NCBI GenBank assembly: GCA_021372575.1
Contig: JAJFUE010000139.1
Location: forward strand, 1 to 60,516
Direction of reading: 5' to 3'
Source: a bacterium
GTDB taxonomy: Bacteria; Sumerlaeota; Sumerlaeia; MVZB01
DNA length: 60,516 nt
Shown here: positions 6,713-18,368 of the stretch, piece after piece
Layout: each line of letters starts with the position of its first letter
Numbering within the stretch: the first letter of the stretch is position 1
Made by a program: the position numbers and the translations under genes
Notes under the pieces: generated by a model
The model's database searches: none
What the model was told of the DNA's origin: nothing
The model's input: only the letters and a program-made list of their open reading frames with translations

Positions 6713-7240
6713 ATGTTGCGGATCCGTTCTTCATGTTTCTGTGTAGTGATTCTTCTAATGATCGGTTGCGGCAATAATACTCCTCCACCCACACCACCGG
6801 CGGCTACCCCGGTATCGCAGCCGACATCGGAAGCCACGCCGATTTCGACTGAAAATTCCAAAAGCGATGCGAAAACCTATACCTATGATCAATTAAAGCT
6901 CGTCAACGGCAACGGCATTGTCGTTCAAAATGAAATGAGGTTTGGTGCAAGATTCGCCAATGAGCCGAAATACATCAATGTGTTCAAGTTCCCATTTACG
7001 GACATGAACACTCAAGTTCTGACGATTGATGGAACTCAAATGCAGATAACCTATATCGATTTCGCTGATTCGGAAACAGCCGGTAAGGCACTCGCGAATG
7101 CGAAATCAACATCCTCGAAATCCGTTCTTATCGAGGTTGGGAATTGGGTCGTCTCGATTTCCTGCGGCGCTGCACAGCCAGATCCCACCACGCTCAAGAA
7201 AGCGAGCGATCAAATAGAAGCGAATGCAAATAAGTCGTAA
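6713..7240 (+). CDS. Putative lipoprotein of unknown function
   Basis: A 175-residue protein with a lipoprotein signal: basic start MLRIRSS, hydrophobic stretch, and the lipobox LMIGC with the Cys at residue 19. A Pro/Thr-rich linker (residues 22-45) follows. The remaining ~125 residues form a compact domain with alternating strands (VLTIDGTQMQITYIDFADSE, WVVSISCGA) of no family I recognise. GGGAGG ends nine bases before the ATG. The gene is distinctly AT-richer than its neighbours, which suggests recent acquisition or weak selection. It stands alone, convergent with the RNase Y gene. Likely attached to a membrane leaflet facing the periplasm. Confidence 0.75.
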   Translation: MLRIRSSCFCVVILLMIGCGNNTPPPTPPAATPVSQPTSEATPISTENSKSDAKTYTYDQLKLVNGNGIVVQNEMRFGARFANEPKYINVFKFPFTDMNTQVLTIDGTQMQITYIDFADSETAGKALANAKSTSSKSVLIEVGNWVVSISCGAAQPDPTTLKKASDQIEANANKS

Positions 7241-10902: not shown

Positions 10903-11427
10903 ATGGCCACCCGCGATCAAATCTTCCAAAGCTGGATCGAACGGCACAAGGGGCTTTTGTTAAAAGTCATCCGCTCCTACGAGTCCACCCTCGACGGCCA
11001 GGATGACCTGTTCCAGGAAATCCTTGTGCAGCTTTGGAACTCCATCCCCCACTTCCGCAACGAATCCAGGGAAACGACGTGGATCTACCGGGTCGCGCTC
11101 AACACGGCGCTCGTGTGGGTCCGCACGCAAAAACGTTCGCGCGCCAAACACCGGCGCATCCTCGAGAGCGCGATCGAACAGCAACGCGCGAATCCATGCG
11201 CGGCGACCGTAGCGGCGAACAGCGACGACGCCGTCGAAAGCCTCTACCGCGCCATCCGCCGGCTCCCGGTCATCGACGCCAGCCTAATTCTGATGCACCT
11301 CGACGGCGTGAGTTACGACGAGATGGCCGATGTCCTGGGCATCACGAAATCGCACGCCGGCGTGCGCCTGAGCCGCGCCAAACAAAAACTCGCCGAGCTC
11401 ATGAAAGGAGTCAGCGATGAATTTTGA
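10903..11427 (+). CDS. RNA polymerase sigma factor, ECF type
   Basis: A 174-residue sigma-70 family protein that would direct core RNA polymerase to a stress or envelope regulon. Region 2 spans about residues 10-80 (DLFQEILVQLWNSIPHFR, then TWIYRVALNTALVWVR). Region 4 spans about 112-168 (LPVIDASLILMHLDGVSYDE, MADVLGITKSHAGVRLSRAK). The linker is short, as in ECF factors. The ATG at 10903 follows GGGGAACAGG. The next gene, encoding a membrane protein, overlaps its end by 11 bases, the usual arrangement of an ECF factor with a membrane anti-sigma factor. Family assignment firm; target promoters unknown. Confidence 0.92.
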   Translation: MATRDQIFQSWIERHKGLLLKVIRSYESTLDGQDDLFQEILVQLWNSIPHFRNESRETTWIYRVALNTALVWVRTQKRSRAKHRRILESAIEQQRANPCAATVAANSDDAVESLYRAIRRLPVIDASLILMHLDGVSYDEMADVLGITKSHAGVRLSRAKQKLAELMKGVSDEF

Positions 11428-12031
11428 CGAAATGCAAAACCTCTGGCGCTCGCAGTGCGAAGGCTACAAAATTTCGATCGACTCGTCCGTTCTGCTCGGC
11501 GAGGTCAAACGCAATCACAGATACTTTGCATCGATGATTCTCGGGCGCGACGTGACCGAGTGTGTGGTGGCGCTGATGATGACCGCCTTTTTCTGCATCG
11601 TGGGAATGAGCGCCCATTTTTATTCCCTCCTGCTCGTGGCCGCGGCATCGGCGTGGGTCGGGTTGTTCCTGTTCATCGACCGCATGATTCAAAAAAGGAA
11701 ACACAAAACCGGCGGCGCATCGTTGCTGGAAGTGGTCGAATCTTCCATTCAGGACGTCTCGCACCAGATCTGGCTGCTGGAGCATGTGCTGTGGTGGTAT
11801 CTGCTGCCGCCGGGTGTCAGCCTCGCGATTTTTTACGGCGCGCTGCTCGTCACGGTCATGCCGCTCAGCGGGTCGGCGTTGGCGTTCGCGCTGATTGTGA
11901 TCGGAGGCGGCGTTCTGATCGGCACAGTGATTTTCTGGTGGGTTTACAGGCTCAACAAAGCCGCGGTCCGGAACGAGCTGCTCCCAAGAAAACGCGAGCT
12001 GGAAGAGCTGCGCGAGAGCTTGATGCAATAG
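11417..12031 (+). CDS. Membrane protein coupled to the ECF sigma factor, candidate anti-sigma
   Basis: A 204-residue protein whose ATG lies inside the end of the sigma gene, with AAAGGAGTCAGCG upstream as ribosome-binding site. It begins with a soluble ~45-residue segment (MNFDEMQNLWRSQ) followed by two helices (about 50-90), a cytoplasmic-looking linker with VVESSIQDVSHQI, and two more helices (about 115-165), then a charged C-terminal helix. No zinc-binding HxxxCxxC anti-sigma motif is present. That it restrains the sigma factor is an inference from coupling and topology. Membrane proteins with an N-terminus of this MNFDEMQ type often follow sigma genes, but I cannot name the family. Confidence 0.75.
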   Translation: MNFDEMQNLWRSQCEGYKISIDSSVLLGEVKRNHRYFASMILGRDVTECVVALMMTAFFCIVGMSAHFYSLLLVAAASAWVGLFLFIDRMIQKRKHKTGGASLLEVVESSIQDVSHQIWLLEHVLWWYLLPPGVSLAIFYGALLVTVMPLSGSALAFALIVIGGGVLIGTVIFWWVYRLNKAAVRNELLPRKRELEELRESLMQ

Positions 12032-13200: not shown

Positions 13201-13327
13201 AAAAGCGGCGTATAACCTGTCATTCAACTCGGGGTTATCGCCGCCTTATATGATGCCTGAAAATAAATGCCATACAGGGCCGGGTTCATATCCTATTATG
13301 ACGGAGTCTCACGAACGGAGCTCTTCG

Positions 13328-16300
13328 ATGGATCACGACGCACAGCAATTATGGGAAGCGTTCTGCGCCACGACGGACGAGCCGTCGTTCAATGCGCTTT
13401 ACGATCGGTTCCGTTCCCTGGCGTGGACGCTCTGCTGGCGCATCCTCGGCAACGAGGAGGATACCCACGATGCGTTCCAGTCGGCATGGGCGCGCCTGTT
13501 CGCCCACGCCCGCGAGCAAGGCTCCGCTGCCGCCGCGGATTCGGTGATGGCGCTCATCTACCGGTTCAGCATCCGGGAGGCCGACGCCCTCAACAAGCGC
13601 CGCATCAGGCGGCGCCGAAGGGAGATTGTCATGGACGAGCTGCCTGCCGTTTCATCCGGCGCCGTCCCAGCCGATGAAATGGCCGCCGCCGCCGAGCGCC
13701 GCACGCGACTCGAAACCATCGTCGCCATGCTCCCGGAAAAATATCGCCTTCCGATCCAGCTCCATTACATGCACGGCATGACGCAGGCCCAGATCGCCGA
13801 AATGATGGATATCTCGCAGTCGGCGGTGGCGACGCGCCTGTCGCGCGGCACGCGCAAACTCACCCCGCTGGCCGAGCGTGCGGGCCTCGGCAATCTGGCC
13901 GGAATCCTCGGCGCGGTCGCCGCCGGCGGCGTGTTGCTCTCGCCCCCCAAGGCGCTCGCCGGGGCCGTCCTCTACGTCCAGATCGAATCCATGCTCGCTG
14001 CCGGCGCGACATCGGCCGCCATCGCGGCCGGAGGCTCGGCAGCAGTCTCCAAAACAATCGTCGGAGTCACTGTCATGAAGATGAAGCTTGCGGTTGTTTC
14101 CGGACTTCTGGCCGTTGCCGCCGCCACGGCGATCGGCATTCATTACCACAACAGCGGCAACAAGGGCGTTGGCGCGCCGGGCAGCGTCGCCCAAGTCACC
14201 ATCGTGAGGCCCACGCCGCCGTCGGTCGTTGTCGTAAACTCCTTGCGCAAAACGAATGACGCCGGCAAGCCGGCCGCCGCGAAGGCGACGCCCGCGCCGA
14301 CGCCAACTCCCGCCGCGACTCCCGAGGGCCCCCTGCGCGAAATTCGCGTCGCGGTTGTCTGGGGCGACACGCAAAACGCGGCGACCGACACCACCGTCAG
14401 CATGCAGAACAACAGCGCCGGCAATAATGTGTTCCCGACATTCGGGCGCACGGATTCCGCGGGCCTAGCGAAAGTCAAAATCCCCGAGGCGTGGGAAATC
14501 GCCCGCATCAAAACCTCCAATCCAAATTCGCTCAATATGTATCAGACTTTTGAACCGGCCACCGTCCAGCAGCCGATCGTGATCGCGCTGACGCGCGCCG
14601 GCCGGATTTTCGGCAGCGTCAGAACCACCGACGGCCGCCCTGTCGCGGGCGCGGACATCGGCTGCCAGGGCAACGGCGCCTACCGCGTGACGCGCTCCGC
14701 CGAGGACGGCACCTACGAGGTCTATCAGATCCCGGCCGGCTCCGCGTCGCTCACCGCCACGTATAAAAACCTGCGTTCGGACATCAATGGCGGCGCCCGG
14801 GTCGTGACGGCCGTCGTCGGCGAGCGCGTCGGCCCGATCGCGCTCACGCTCGAGCCCGGGCTGACCGTCACCGGAGTCGTCACGGCCAGCAAGACCGGCC
14901 AACCGGTCCCCGGCGCGACGATCATGGGCCCCAGCACAGGCAACCGCAGTCTTAAGGCCACCTCCGACCTTGCCGGTCGGTTTACGCTCGCCGGCCTGAC
15001 CGCGGCGCGCCAGACGCTCAGGGCCAAGGCCCCCAACTACGCGATCCAGGCGCGGATGGTCATGCCGGCGGCCGACGCCGAAACGCGCTGCGATTTCACG
15101 CTTGATCCCGGCGGCGAGGTCGAGGCGACCGTCGTGGACGAAAAAGGCAACCCTCTTGAAGGCGCTGAAGTCCGCGCCTACTTCAATTCCGTCTCAACCG
15201 TGGACGATGTGGCCCCACGGACGGACTCGAGCGGCCGCACGACGGTACGCAACGTGGCCACTGACCAGAGCATCAGCCTGTCGGCGTCCAAAACCGGACT
15301 CGGCAGCGCCAGCCAGCAAATCATGTTCCCCCCCGGCGAGCTCAAGACAAAAGCCAGGCTCACGCTAAAGCCGGAGGATCGGCAGGGGAGCTATATCGCC
15401 GGAACCGTCACCGACGAAACCGGCAAGCCCCTGCCCGACATCAACATTTACTCCGGCTATTACCAGTCCAGCGCGTACACCAACCCAACGACCAAGACCG
15501 ACGCCCAGGGCCGTTACGAACTGCAAACAACCGCCAGTAACTCGTATTACCTGAGCGCTTACGGCAAGGGCTGGGGGACGGAAGCCAAGCGGTCGGTCAC
15601 CCCGGGGACCAAGGACAAACCGACCCGGGCCGATTTTGTCATGAAACCGGGACATTGGCTGGCCGGCGTGGTCGTCGATGAAAAAGATTCACCGCTCAAG
15701 GATATTCAGATCAGCCTGAGTTCATCCAGCACGGGCAACCCGATGCCGAGCCCAGACCTCAAAACCGATGCCTCGGGCCGGTTCCGCGCCGAAGATCTCC
15801 CGGACTCGAGAATGAACGTCAACCTGAGCGGCAAGGACATCCCGTCTCAATCGCAAACGGCCGGCGTCGATACCGAGACCCGGTTCGTGCTCAAGGCCAT
15901 GGGCTCGATCCGCGGCCGCGTCATCGACAAGGACACGCAGAAGCCCGTCCAGGCGTTCGCGATCAAGGTCGCCGGAAGCGGCATCGATTATCAACTCAAC
16001 ACGACTGGTCAGGCGTTCAGCAACCCGGACGGCAAGTTCGAGATCAAGCTGCTTACGAAAGACGATGCCTACGACCTCACGATCGAGAGCAAGGATTATT
16101 CGAGCCACACCGAATCGCAAATCGTGGCCAAGGCCGCCGACAACACGGAAGAGATCACGATTAACATCAGCAAGGGAGCGGCGATCCGCGGCGTCCTCAT
16201 CGACGCCAACTCCAGGACGCCGATCGCGGGAGCGCTTGTCGCCTATGGATCAAATCAGAACAGCTACTTCTCGTGGCGCTACATCACGGATTCCAGTTAC

Positions 16301-17962
16301 AGCAGCAACATTCAGATCGTGGCGCGCGCCGTCACGGGCGCCGATGGGCGCTTTGAACTGAATGCCGACAACGAACACCTCACGATGTGGATCGTGCCAG
16401 CCGAACACAAGCGCATGCTCCTCTCCGAGGCCGACCGCGCCCGGTTCAAAAGCGACAAGGAATACGTCATCCCGATCGCGCGCGGCGCGACCCTCACCGG
16501 AAAGGTGTACCTGGACGGAAAGATCCAGCCGCAGAACAACATTTATATCAATCAGCTCACCGCCCAAAGCGGCCAGGGCGTCGATTTCGGCCAGATCAAT
16601 ACCGACGAGCAAGGCGTTTACCTGCTGGGCGGCCTCGATGCCGGCGACTACACGATCAGCGGTCCGAACCGCCGCGTTGGCAACTACGGCTACTATGTGT
16701 ATTCGAAGAAAGTGCCCCTCAAGGACGGCGAAAAGAAGGAAGTCAACCTGGGCGACAACCTGGGGGGCTGCCTCCTGGCCGGCGCCGTCTTGAACGGCGG
16801 CCAGTCGGTCCCGAACGCCCACATCACCCTGAACCCGACGTTCGATTGGGAATACACGGGATTCAGCGGCAACTCCGACGAGAACGGGGTTTACGCAATC
16901 GACGGCCTCGCGCCGGGCAAATACAACGCCAACGTTTACAAATACGACGACTCCAGCGGGATGAGCCGCTATCAGGTCAACGAAGTCGTCGAAGTCAAGG
17001 CCGGCACGACCGAGCACAACTTCGAGCGCGGCGGCCACAAGGTCACGGGCCGGCTCGTGTTCAGCGAAGATGCCGCCCCCTCCTACCGCTCCAGCTTCAG
17101 GAACGGCCATCTCTCGATCATGGGCAACATTCAGCAACCCGAGACCGGGCCCAAAATCGATCAGTATGCCAGCTGCGAGATTAAAGCCGGCGTCCTCACG
17201 TTCGATGGCCGGTTCAAGGGCGACTACCACATCACGATTGCCGGCGATTACCAGAGCGGCAATACGACGTCGATGATGCTGCCGCAGACCTACAAAATCG
17301 ACAACACGCAGGCCGACGTCGATCTCGGCGAGATCGCCGTCCCGGCGACCGGCCGCATCAAGGTCAACATCCGGAATACGGACCCAAACGTGAGGCCGCG
17401 GAATCTGCAGGCCGTCGTTTCACAGGCCGGCTCCGGAACCGATCGGCGCGGCGTATCGAACAGTATCATGATTGACCCGAGCAAAGGCGAGCAGTCGGTC
17501 GGCCCGGTCCCGGTCGGCGACGTCGAGGTTCGGATCGTCGCTGATGGCTTCCGGTGCGAGCCGAAGTCGGCGCCGGTCACCGTCACCGCGGGGCAGGAAT
17601 CCGGCCCGCTCAACTTCACGGTCACGCCCAGTTCGGATATCATCGTGATCGTCATGACCCCGAATACGAACCTGCAAACGTCCAGAACCCCGATCCCGGG
17701 ATCAAAGGTGACGCTGACCGGCAACGGCGTGCAACGCCAGTTGCTGGCGTCCGACGCCCCGGTCAACGAGCAAACCGCCATGATCGCGTATTCGTCCAAC
17801 CAGGACGTGACGTTCGGCCCGGCGTTTATCTTCCGCAACCTGCCCGAAGGCAGTTATACACTCGCGATCGAGGCGCCGGGCTACAAGCCCTATAGCCAGC
17901 AGACCTCGGCCGCGAAAGGCAAAACGGCACAAATCCAGGCCAGACTTCAGAAACTCCAATAA
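13328..17962 (+). CDS. Sigma-70 factor fused to a transmembrane helix and extracytoplasmic beta-sandwich repeats
   Basis: A 1544-residue protein. The start at 13328 follows ACGGAG by seven bases; two upstream in-frame ATGs lack this. Residues 20-90 are sigma region 2 (GNEEDTHDAFQSAWARLF) and 130-180 region 4 (LPEKYRLPIQLHYMHGMTQA, AQIAEMMDISQSAVATRLSR). An Ala/Gly-rich stretch (190-250) leads to one membrane helix at about 252-272. A Pro/Thr linker (320-333) follows. From about 340 to the end, at least nine segments repeat the carboxypeptidase-regulatory-like pattern G-x-V-x-D-x-x-G-x-P-(V/L)-x-(G/D)-A, TD-x-x-G-x-(F/Y)-x-(L/V) and A-x-x-Y. The order implies a cytoplasmic sigma head tied to a large outside region, so it may be a one-protein signal transducer released by proteolysis. 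Sigma factors with C-terminal extensions are known in PVC bacteria; this exact architecture I cannot match. A terminator follows. Confidence 0.9.
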   Translation: MDHDAQQLWEAFCATTDEPSFNALYDRFRSLAWTLCWRILGNEEDTHDAFQSAWARLFAHAREQGSAAAADSVMALIYRFSIREADALNKRRIRRRRREIVMDELPAVSSGAVPADEMAAAAERRTRLETIVAMLPEKYRLPIQLHYMHGMTQAQIAEMMDISQSAVATRLSRGTRKLTPLAERAGLGNLAGILGAVAAGGVLLSPPKALAGAVLYVQIESMLAAGATSAAIAAGGSAAVSKTIVGVTVMKMKLAVVSGLLAVAAATAIGIHYHNSGNKGVGAPGSVAQVTIVRPTPPSVVVVNSLRKTNDAGKPAAAKATPAPTPTPAATPEGPLREIRVAVVWGDTQNAATDTTVSMQNNSAGNNVFPTFGRTDSAGLAKVKIPEAWEIARIKTSNPNSLNMYQTFEPATVQQPIVIALTRAGRIFGSVRTTDGRPVAGADIGCQGNGAYRVTRSAEDGTYEVYQIPAGSASLTATYKNLRSDINGGARVVTAVVGERVGPIALTLEPGLTVTGVVTASKTGQPVPGATIMGPSTGNRSLKATSDLAGRFTLAGLTAARQTLRAKAPNYAIQARMVMPAADAETRCDFTLDPGGEVEATVVDEKGNPLEGAEVRAYFNSVSTVDDVAPRTDSSGRTTVRNVATDQSISLSASKTGLGSASQQIMFPPGELKTKARLTLKPEDRQGSYIAGTVTDETGKPLPDINIYSGYYQSSAYTNPTTKTDAQGRYELQTTASNSYYLSAYGKGWGTEAKRSVTPGTKDKPTRADFVMKPGHWLAGVVVDEKDSPLKDIQISLSSSSTGNPMPSPDLKTDASGRFRAEDLPDSRMNVNLSGKDIPSQSQTAGVDTETRFVLKAMGSIRGRVIDKDTQKPVQAFAIKVAGSGIDYQLNTTGQAFSNPDGKFEIKLLTKDDAYDLTIESKDYSSHTESQIVAKAADNTEEITINISKGAAIRGVLIDANSRTPIAGALVAYGSNQNSYFSWRYITDSSYSSNIQIVARAVTGADGRFELNADNEHLTMWIVPAEHKRMLLSEADRARFKSDKEYVIPIARGATLTGKVYLDGKIQPQNNIYINQLTAQSGQGVDFGQINTDEQGVYLLGGLDAGDYTISGPNRRVGNYGYYVYSKKVPLKDGEKKEVNLGDNLGGCLLAGAVLNGGQSVPNAHITLNPTFDWEYTGFSGNSDENGVYAIDGLAPGKYNANVYKYDDSSGMSRYQVNEVVEVKAGTTEHNFERGGHKVTGRLVFSEDAAPSYRSSFRNGHLSIMGNIQQPETGPKIDQYASCEIKAGVLTFDGRFKGDYHITIAGDYQSGNTTSMMLPQTYKIDNTQADVDLGEIAVPATGRIKVNIRNTDPNVRPRNLQAVVSQAGSGTDRRGVSNSIMIDPSKGEQSVGPVPVGDVEVRIVADGFRCEPKSAPVTVTAGQESGPLNFTVTPSSDIIVIVMTPNTNLQTSRTPIPGSKVTLTGNGVQRQLLASDAPVNEQTAMIAYSSNQDVTFGPAFIFRNLPEGSYTLAIEAPGYKPYSQQTSAAKGKTAQIQARLQKLQ

Positions 17963-17990
17963 TCTCTCGGGGTCCTCCCCCCCCATTGAG

Positions 17991-18028
17991 ACCCGTCAGG
18001 GGCCCCTGCCCTGGCGGGTTTCTTTTTT
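17991..18028 (+). terminator. Rho-independent terminator of the sigma-fusion gene
   Basis: ACCCGTCAGGG pairs with CCCTGGCGGGT around a GC-rich loop (17991-18019), followed by TTTCTTTTTT. It starts about 28 bases after the stop codon. Confidence 0.85.
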
Positions 18029-18038
18029 AAATGAGATC

Positions 18039-18368
18039 GTGTTCCCCGGCCGCGGGATTACGAATCGCGATCGTTTGATTGACGCTACATTCGGGGTGAT
18101 GCGTGATGTGATGGCGCTCGACGGCATCGAGGATATTTGGGAAAAGCGAATTTTGCCGCTGACCGATTCGGTCGCGATCTCGAAAACAACAAACCGAAGC
18201 GTGCTGGCGTCGATGAATGATCTCGTGATTCATGCATACTACATGATCGCTGGAGTTGTCGGCCCGAACCTGCTCGTTTCCGTGCGCCTGAACAAAACAC
18301 CGATGGGCGCGATGAAATACGACAATCCGCGCGAAGCGATCATGAAATTGGCGGCCGAAAATAAATAA
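18039..18368 (+). pseudogene. DUF6933-like protein, probably N-terminally truncated
   Basis: The frame encodes 109 residues from a GTG at 18039, with no Shine-Dalgarno. The C-terminal half matches my recollection of the DUF6933 pattern: AISKTTNRSVLASMNDLVIH then VRLNKTPMGAMKYDNPREAI. Full members are about 150 residues and open with a segment on drawing or display strings that is absent here; the frame begins abruptly at FPGRGITNRDRLIDA, right after the terminator of the previous gene. The simplest reading is a remnant whose 5' end was lost when the upstream terminator region was joined to it. A functional short version cannot be excluded. Confidence 0.5.

Follow-up and report, generated by a model that had tools for sequence, protein, structure and literature searches.

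The stretch of DNA analysed here (the window: 60,516 nucleotides of contig JAJFUE010000139.1) carries a gene for an ECF sigma factor in which both core sigma domains, a linker of about 60–70 residues, one predicted membrane helix, and a long ectodomain of β-sandwiches are joined in one polypeptide. By analogy with characterised fused sigma factors, the protein may be a one-piece transmembrane sigma factor that is freed by signal-dependent cleavage, a reading held here with middling confidence. The host class is Candidatus Sumerlaeota/BRC1, judging by its named relatives in a genome-contig scan with five aligned rows, and not a planctomycete.

Architecture and flanking signals of the gene

The features of the gene and its flanks are listed below, with window coordinates and strand.

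13291..13308, +, 18-base upstream element TCCTATTATGACGGAGTC, with 17 of 18 bases in common with a paralogue (G000:C41:26729-26746)
13315..13320, +, Shine-Dalgarno sequence ACGGAG, 7 nt upstream of the ATG
13328..17962, +, tethered sigma factor gene, a single open reading frame of 1544 aa, with domain matches and a full-length paralogue
13388..13627, +, sigma region 2 (residues 21-100), from TIGR02937, a weak Pfam match, and a profile match to solved ECF sigma factors
13706..13861, +, sigma region 4 (residues 127-178), Sigma70_r4_2 at E=6e-14, with the lowest pN/pS, 0.26
13874..14062, +, juxtamembrane linker (residues 183-245), with a weak hydrophobic stretch, a conserved L-x-PP-xx-L-x-A motif, and no Cys/His
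14087..14143, +, single predicted transmembrane helix (about residues 254-272), with KMK at its cytoplasmic side
14144..14347, +, external P/T/A-rich linker (about residues 273-340), the least conserved of all segments
14348..17959, +, ectodomain of about ten CarboxypepD_reg-type β-sandwiches and further β domains, PEGA-like at the C-terminus
17988..18028, +, intrinsic terminator, a 14-bp stem followed by a T run

Residues 21–178 match the sigma70-ECF model TIGR02937 with 71.6 bits against a cut-off of 42.9; in Pfam, Sigma70_r4_2 lies above its cut-off, and Sigma70_r2 is weak (E=0.002) and lies below it. ECF sigma factors are also the best PDB matches when a profile of the sigma–linker–helix module is compared with solved structures (E about 1e-35), and the protein has regions 2 and 4 only, with no region 1 or 3, as ECF members do. 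In the AlphaFold2 model, the sigma part is mostly at pLDDT above 80–90, with RpoE and SigW as its top Foldseek matches. The sequence-only reading had described regions 2 and 4 followed by one membrane helix in the same open frame, and had named an HMM search and structure prediction as checks; both agree with its description, and CarboxypepD_reg is matched as well.

The same reading had assigned about 1200 residues to carboxypeptidase-regulatory-like repeats, which holds for about ten repeats (nine stretches by Pfam at E=4e-73, ten by a local HMM) but not for the last part, which is β-rich without being CarboxypepD_reg throughout. Residues 345–1544 are modelled as nearly all β at a low overall confidence (mean pLDDT 64.5), and Foldseek matches this model best to pilins and adhesins of Gram-positive bacteria, whose sandwiches are similar; as the TM-scores are low, the fold class alone is supported.

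The single ribosome-binding site and single terminator that had been read from the DNA are both in place, the latter a strong one with its 14-bp-stem structure at 17988–18022, and the paralogue likewise has GGAGGT before its corresponding MD start. The 18-base element lies 20–37 bases upstream of the start codon, in upstream DNA that has otherwise diverged between the two paralogues; it contains TATTAT, which resembles a −10 box, and is possibly a −10 or leader element. At 0–1 mismatch it was not found in the genome beyond the two paralogue loci, nor was it found upstream of eight more distant family members. A regulon defined by this element was considered and set aside, the other genomic near-matches being in unrelated places, with one pair inside a coding repeat. 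Directly past the terminator, a short open reading frame (18039-18368, + strand) matches DUF6933 (E=5e-12).

Anchoring, topology, and possible release of the sigma factor

In the proposed mechanism, the helix would hold the sigma factor, with little or no activity, at the inner membrane. A trigger at the ectodomain, such as ligand binding, mechanical load, or damage, would make the P/T/A-rich linker accessible to a site-1 protease; the shortened stub would then be cut by a site-2 protease of the M50/RseP type, and the freed sigma factor could bind RNA polymerase. One polypeptide would thereby serve as receptor, anti-sigma anchor, and sigma factor. Proteolytic release is plausible for the window protein, and a signal-dependent cut in the external linker and then a site-2 cut are favoured because of the IutY precedent, the domain order of the ECF52 protein SCO4117, and the proteolysis class to which a recent review assigns such fusions (references below). 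The host genome encodes four M50 proteases; at least one is found in each of 14 control genomes as well, so their presence adds little to the case for cleavage.

The absence of a separate anti-sigma factor, which had been part of the original suggestion, agrees with the gene neighbourhood: no anti-sigma-like gene was recognised among the genes adjoining either paralogue. The two loci share no operon or neighbour gene, and their upstream neighbours are divergent genes, UDG family 4 and RlpA. Between the sigma part and the helix, Pfam gave no anti-sigma domain, and the absence of Cys/His residues leaves no zinc motif. A hidden anti-sigma domain in this linker was therefore rejected on the Pfam and Cys/His results, although the model of the pre-helix linker is of such low confidence (pLDDT about 42–59) that it would still allow a folded inhibitor. 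Elsewhere in the window (10903-12031, + strand), an ordinary ECF sigma gene of 174 aa overlaps a gene whose 204-aa product has hydrophobic segments and belongs to no known family; this couple could be a sigma factor with its membrane anti-sigma. On another contig of the host genome (L009 1-2139, − strand, G000:C206), a different sigma factor has about five hydrophobic segments past region 4, without a known domain at its C-terminus, and the tree places its sigma part among ordinary ECFs.

A rather unlikely alternative is that the protein stays tethered and uncut, the sigma factor acting or being controlled at the membrane through a conformational or clustering change passed along the helix, without proteolysis. 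No protease site was identified, and the roughly 70 residues that link region 4 to the helix could allow contact with the polymerase. However, the characterised fused precedent, IutY, requires cleavage, and the external linker, with 47% identity, is conserved as poorly as would fit a flexible, cleavable stalk.

A sigma factor in the cytoplasm and repeats outside are strongly inferred; this orientation is favoured because of hydropathy, flanking charge, and the existence of standalone ectodomain paralogues with signal anchors of their own. Across members, there is one strongly hydrophobic segment about 50–100 residues past region 4, with its position conserved in most of them and with K/R and few acidic residues upstream of it in most. 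Ectodomain-only paralogues (L042, L045, and L015) have a short N-terminal signal anchor in place of the sigma part and helix, and one planctomycete member carries a C-terminal AhpC/TSA-thioredoxin domain. In genome G009, a signal-anchored, ectodomain-only protein (L045 5433-9029) is encoded about 10–20 kb from a sigma-tethered relative (L044 5979-10350), an arrangement which suggests that the N-terminal cassette has been exchanged.

A second, weaker hydrophobic stretch precedes the main helix (about residues 188–206), with a mean hydropathy of 1.75 in the window protein. Together with residues 254–272 it could form a hairpin, which would leave the repeats in the cytoplasm as a binding scaffold. 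Such a role has been suggested for the WD40-carrying sigma factors of ECF57, and WD40 versions do occur among the relatives, e.g., L107. This arrangement is nonetheless quite improbable. In relatives, the first stretch is consistently far less membrane-like than the helix, with PP or charged residues in it; this is clearest among the planctomycete members. Hydropathy sums on a flat scale (after Hessa 2005, and usable for comparison only) are mostly about 3–9 for the first stretch against −3 to +3 for the helix, in a set of 26 members that takes in some of the planctomycete ones. The CarboxypepD_reg, PEGA, and AhpC/TSA domains, like the signal-anchored standalone ectodomains, point outside.

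The full-length paralogue, on another contig of the same genome (G000), is collinear with the window protein and 63% identical to it over residues 1–1542. No segment of the pair, the junction included, reaches a pN/pS of 1: beyond the minimum in region 4, it is 0.27–0.42 in region 2, the linker, and the helix, 0.49–0.56 in the repeats, and 0.70 in the P/T/A linker. Selection has therefore acted on one single protein across the junction at residues 190–280, the stretch whose conservation had been put forward for checking.

Constraint of this kind bears on the idea of a vestigial sigma part on a protein whose main role is that of a surface adhesin or structural component. The ectodomain does exist also without a sigma part, and its model is pilin- or adhesin-like in fold; yet the strongest constraint falls on region 4, and the core residues of region 2 are near invariant across the family, which makes this reading very improbable. 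A chimera or sequencing error that fuses two genes, to which two relatives with a frameshift between sigma and repeats (L043 and L044) might lend some colour, can be dismissed, because the genome's second, collinear copy and the constraint through the junction exclude chance or an assembly join, and homologues occur in many assemblies and two phyla. Positions 13328–17962 are a real single fused gene, and the assembly error named beforehand as a threat to the finding does not apply.

Distribution in Sumerlaeota and Planctomycetota

With a profile of the sigma–linker–helix module, the 39 genomes of the Sumerlaeota class give 24 places above 200 bits, spread over 13 of the genomes. Intact sigma–helix–repeat fusions number 14 genes in eight of these 39 genomes: three each in G034 and G037, two each in G000 and G022, and one each in G010, G029, G030, and G032. 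The repeats were confirmed with Pfam in most of the 14 and with the local HMM in the remainder. The possibility that sigma and repeat parts are always separate genes in homologues, which would have counted against the fusion, is thus ruled out. Some members end soon past the helix (300–356 aa), so a large sensor is not obligatory. In L044 (genome G009), a run of eight C at about position 6925, just past the helix in the linker, breaks the frame; it could be either a sequencing error or a phase-variable switch.

The module recurs in seven Planctomycetota genomes, in which profile A1 matches through the helix at 12–83 places per genome. Among the 20 longest fetched Planctomycetota members, 11 (from four genomes) have three to eight CarboxypepD_reg domains by the local HMM, four of them confirmed with Pfam; other relatives have WD40 (e.g., L107) or other extensions. 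The planctomycete tethered sigma factors L140, L136, and L097 have extensions with an AhpC/TSA domain, a weak Peptidase_MA match, and a Poly_export match. The tethered architecture, which had been called striking, is indeed built in one gene, but its wide occurrence in the class and in Planctomycetota makes it less singular than had been supposed.

In a tree of the sigma parts, the Sumerlaeota tethered, Planctomycetota tethered, and ordinary ECF sequences form separate groups (support 94/99 and 100/96). As the tree is rooted at its midpoint and the bootstrap is not fully settled, the tether may have originated in either one or two events.

It is tentatively proposed that Sumerlaeota and Planctomycetota share a large family of transmembrane sigma factors that act as one-component systems. 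In this family, a conserved sigma–linker–helix cassette would be combined with interchangeable outside domains (chains of CarboxypepD_reg, WD40, thioredoxin-like, and others), so that, much as with Notch or SREBP, the receptor would itself be the transcription factor to be released. If so, signal reception and promoter choice would be united in one chain that needs no anti-sigma partner, and in some planctomycetes the cassette would have been amplified to tens of copies per genome. Sumerlaeota and Planctomycetota have very many ECF sigma factors with unexplained C-terminal extensions, for which a conserved linker-plus-helix module with swappable ectodomains would offer a concrete and testable rule of possible control.

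Comparison with known systems

Fused, membrane-held ECF sigma factors are already known, and the window protein lacks the features by which the described groups are defined (zinc finger, FecR, and WD40). ECF52, ECF53, and ECF48 are defined by a zinc-finger (ZAS) anti-sigma domain between the sigma part and the transmembrane helix; the pre-helix region of the window protein has neither a Pfam domain nor Cys/His. Among the matches listed for it, there is no FecR-type domain, which marks IutY and ECF243, the ectodomain being of CarboxypepD_reg type, and no WD40 of the ECF57 kind. In build, the window protein resembles the extended ECFs of Planctomycetota, including the WD40 type (ECF57): sigma regions 2 and 4, a linker of about 60–70 aa, a single helix at the same spacing, and a variable C-terminal extension are common to both, whereas the sigma parts form another clade and many planctomycete proteins carry WD40 or other extensions.

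Among the papers searched, none joins an ECF sigma factor with a carboxypeptidase regulatory-like domain, and none joins Sumerlaeota with a sigma factor; the main ECF reclassification work or Jogler 2012 may contain an earlier description.

With IutY of P. putida (ECF243), the window protein has in common a sigma part, one helix, and a periplasmic part in one chain with no separate anti-sigma factor. In IutY, cleavage by Prc and then RseP releases the sigma factor, and a TonB-dependent receptor reads the periplasmic part, an anti-sigma domain (PMC5411451); in contrast, the window protein has a long repeat ectodomain, and no TonB-dependent receptor partner was found nearby. The Streptomyces ECF52 protein SCO4117, for which cleavage has been proposed, is composed of a sigma part, a transmembrane helix, a proline-rich region, and a carbohydrate module (PMC5826349), an order that parallels the sigma part, helix, proline-rich stretch, and outside binding domain seen here. 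Split relatives occur in both cases, one ECF52 orthologue being split in the proline-rich region (PMC5826349). However, in ECF52 a zinc-finger anti-sigma domain precedes the helix, and the group is described as exclusive to Actinobacteria (PMC5826349), and the window protein is without the zinc finger and belongs to Sumerlaeota. A 2022 review classes fused sigma factors of the IutY and SCO4117 types under activation by proteolysis (PMC8999054). With RpoE–RseA, the classical pairing of an ECF sigma factor and a membrane anti-sigma, the window protein has in common a sigma domain that matches RpoE/SigW structures and anchoring at the inner membrane; here, unlike there, anchor and sigma factor are one polypeptide, with no anti-sigma domain. 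In both its sigma clade and its ectodomain, the window protein is distinct from the IutY and ECF52 families.
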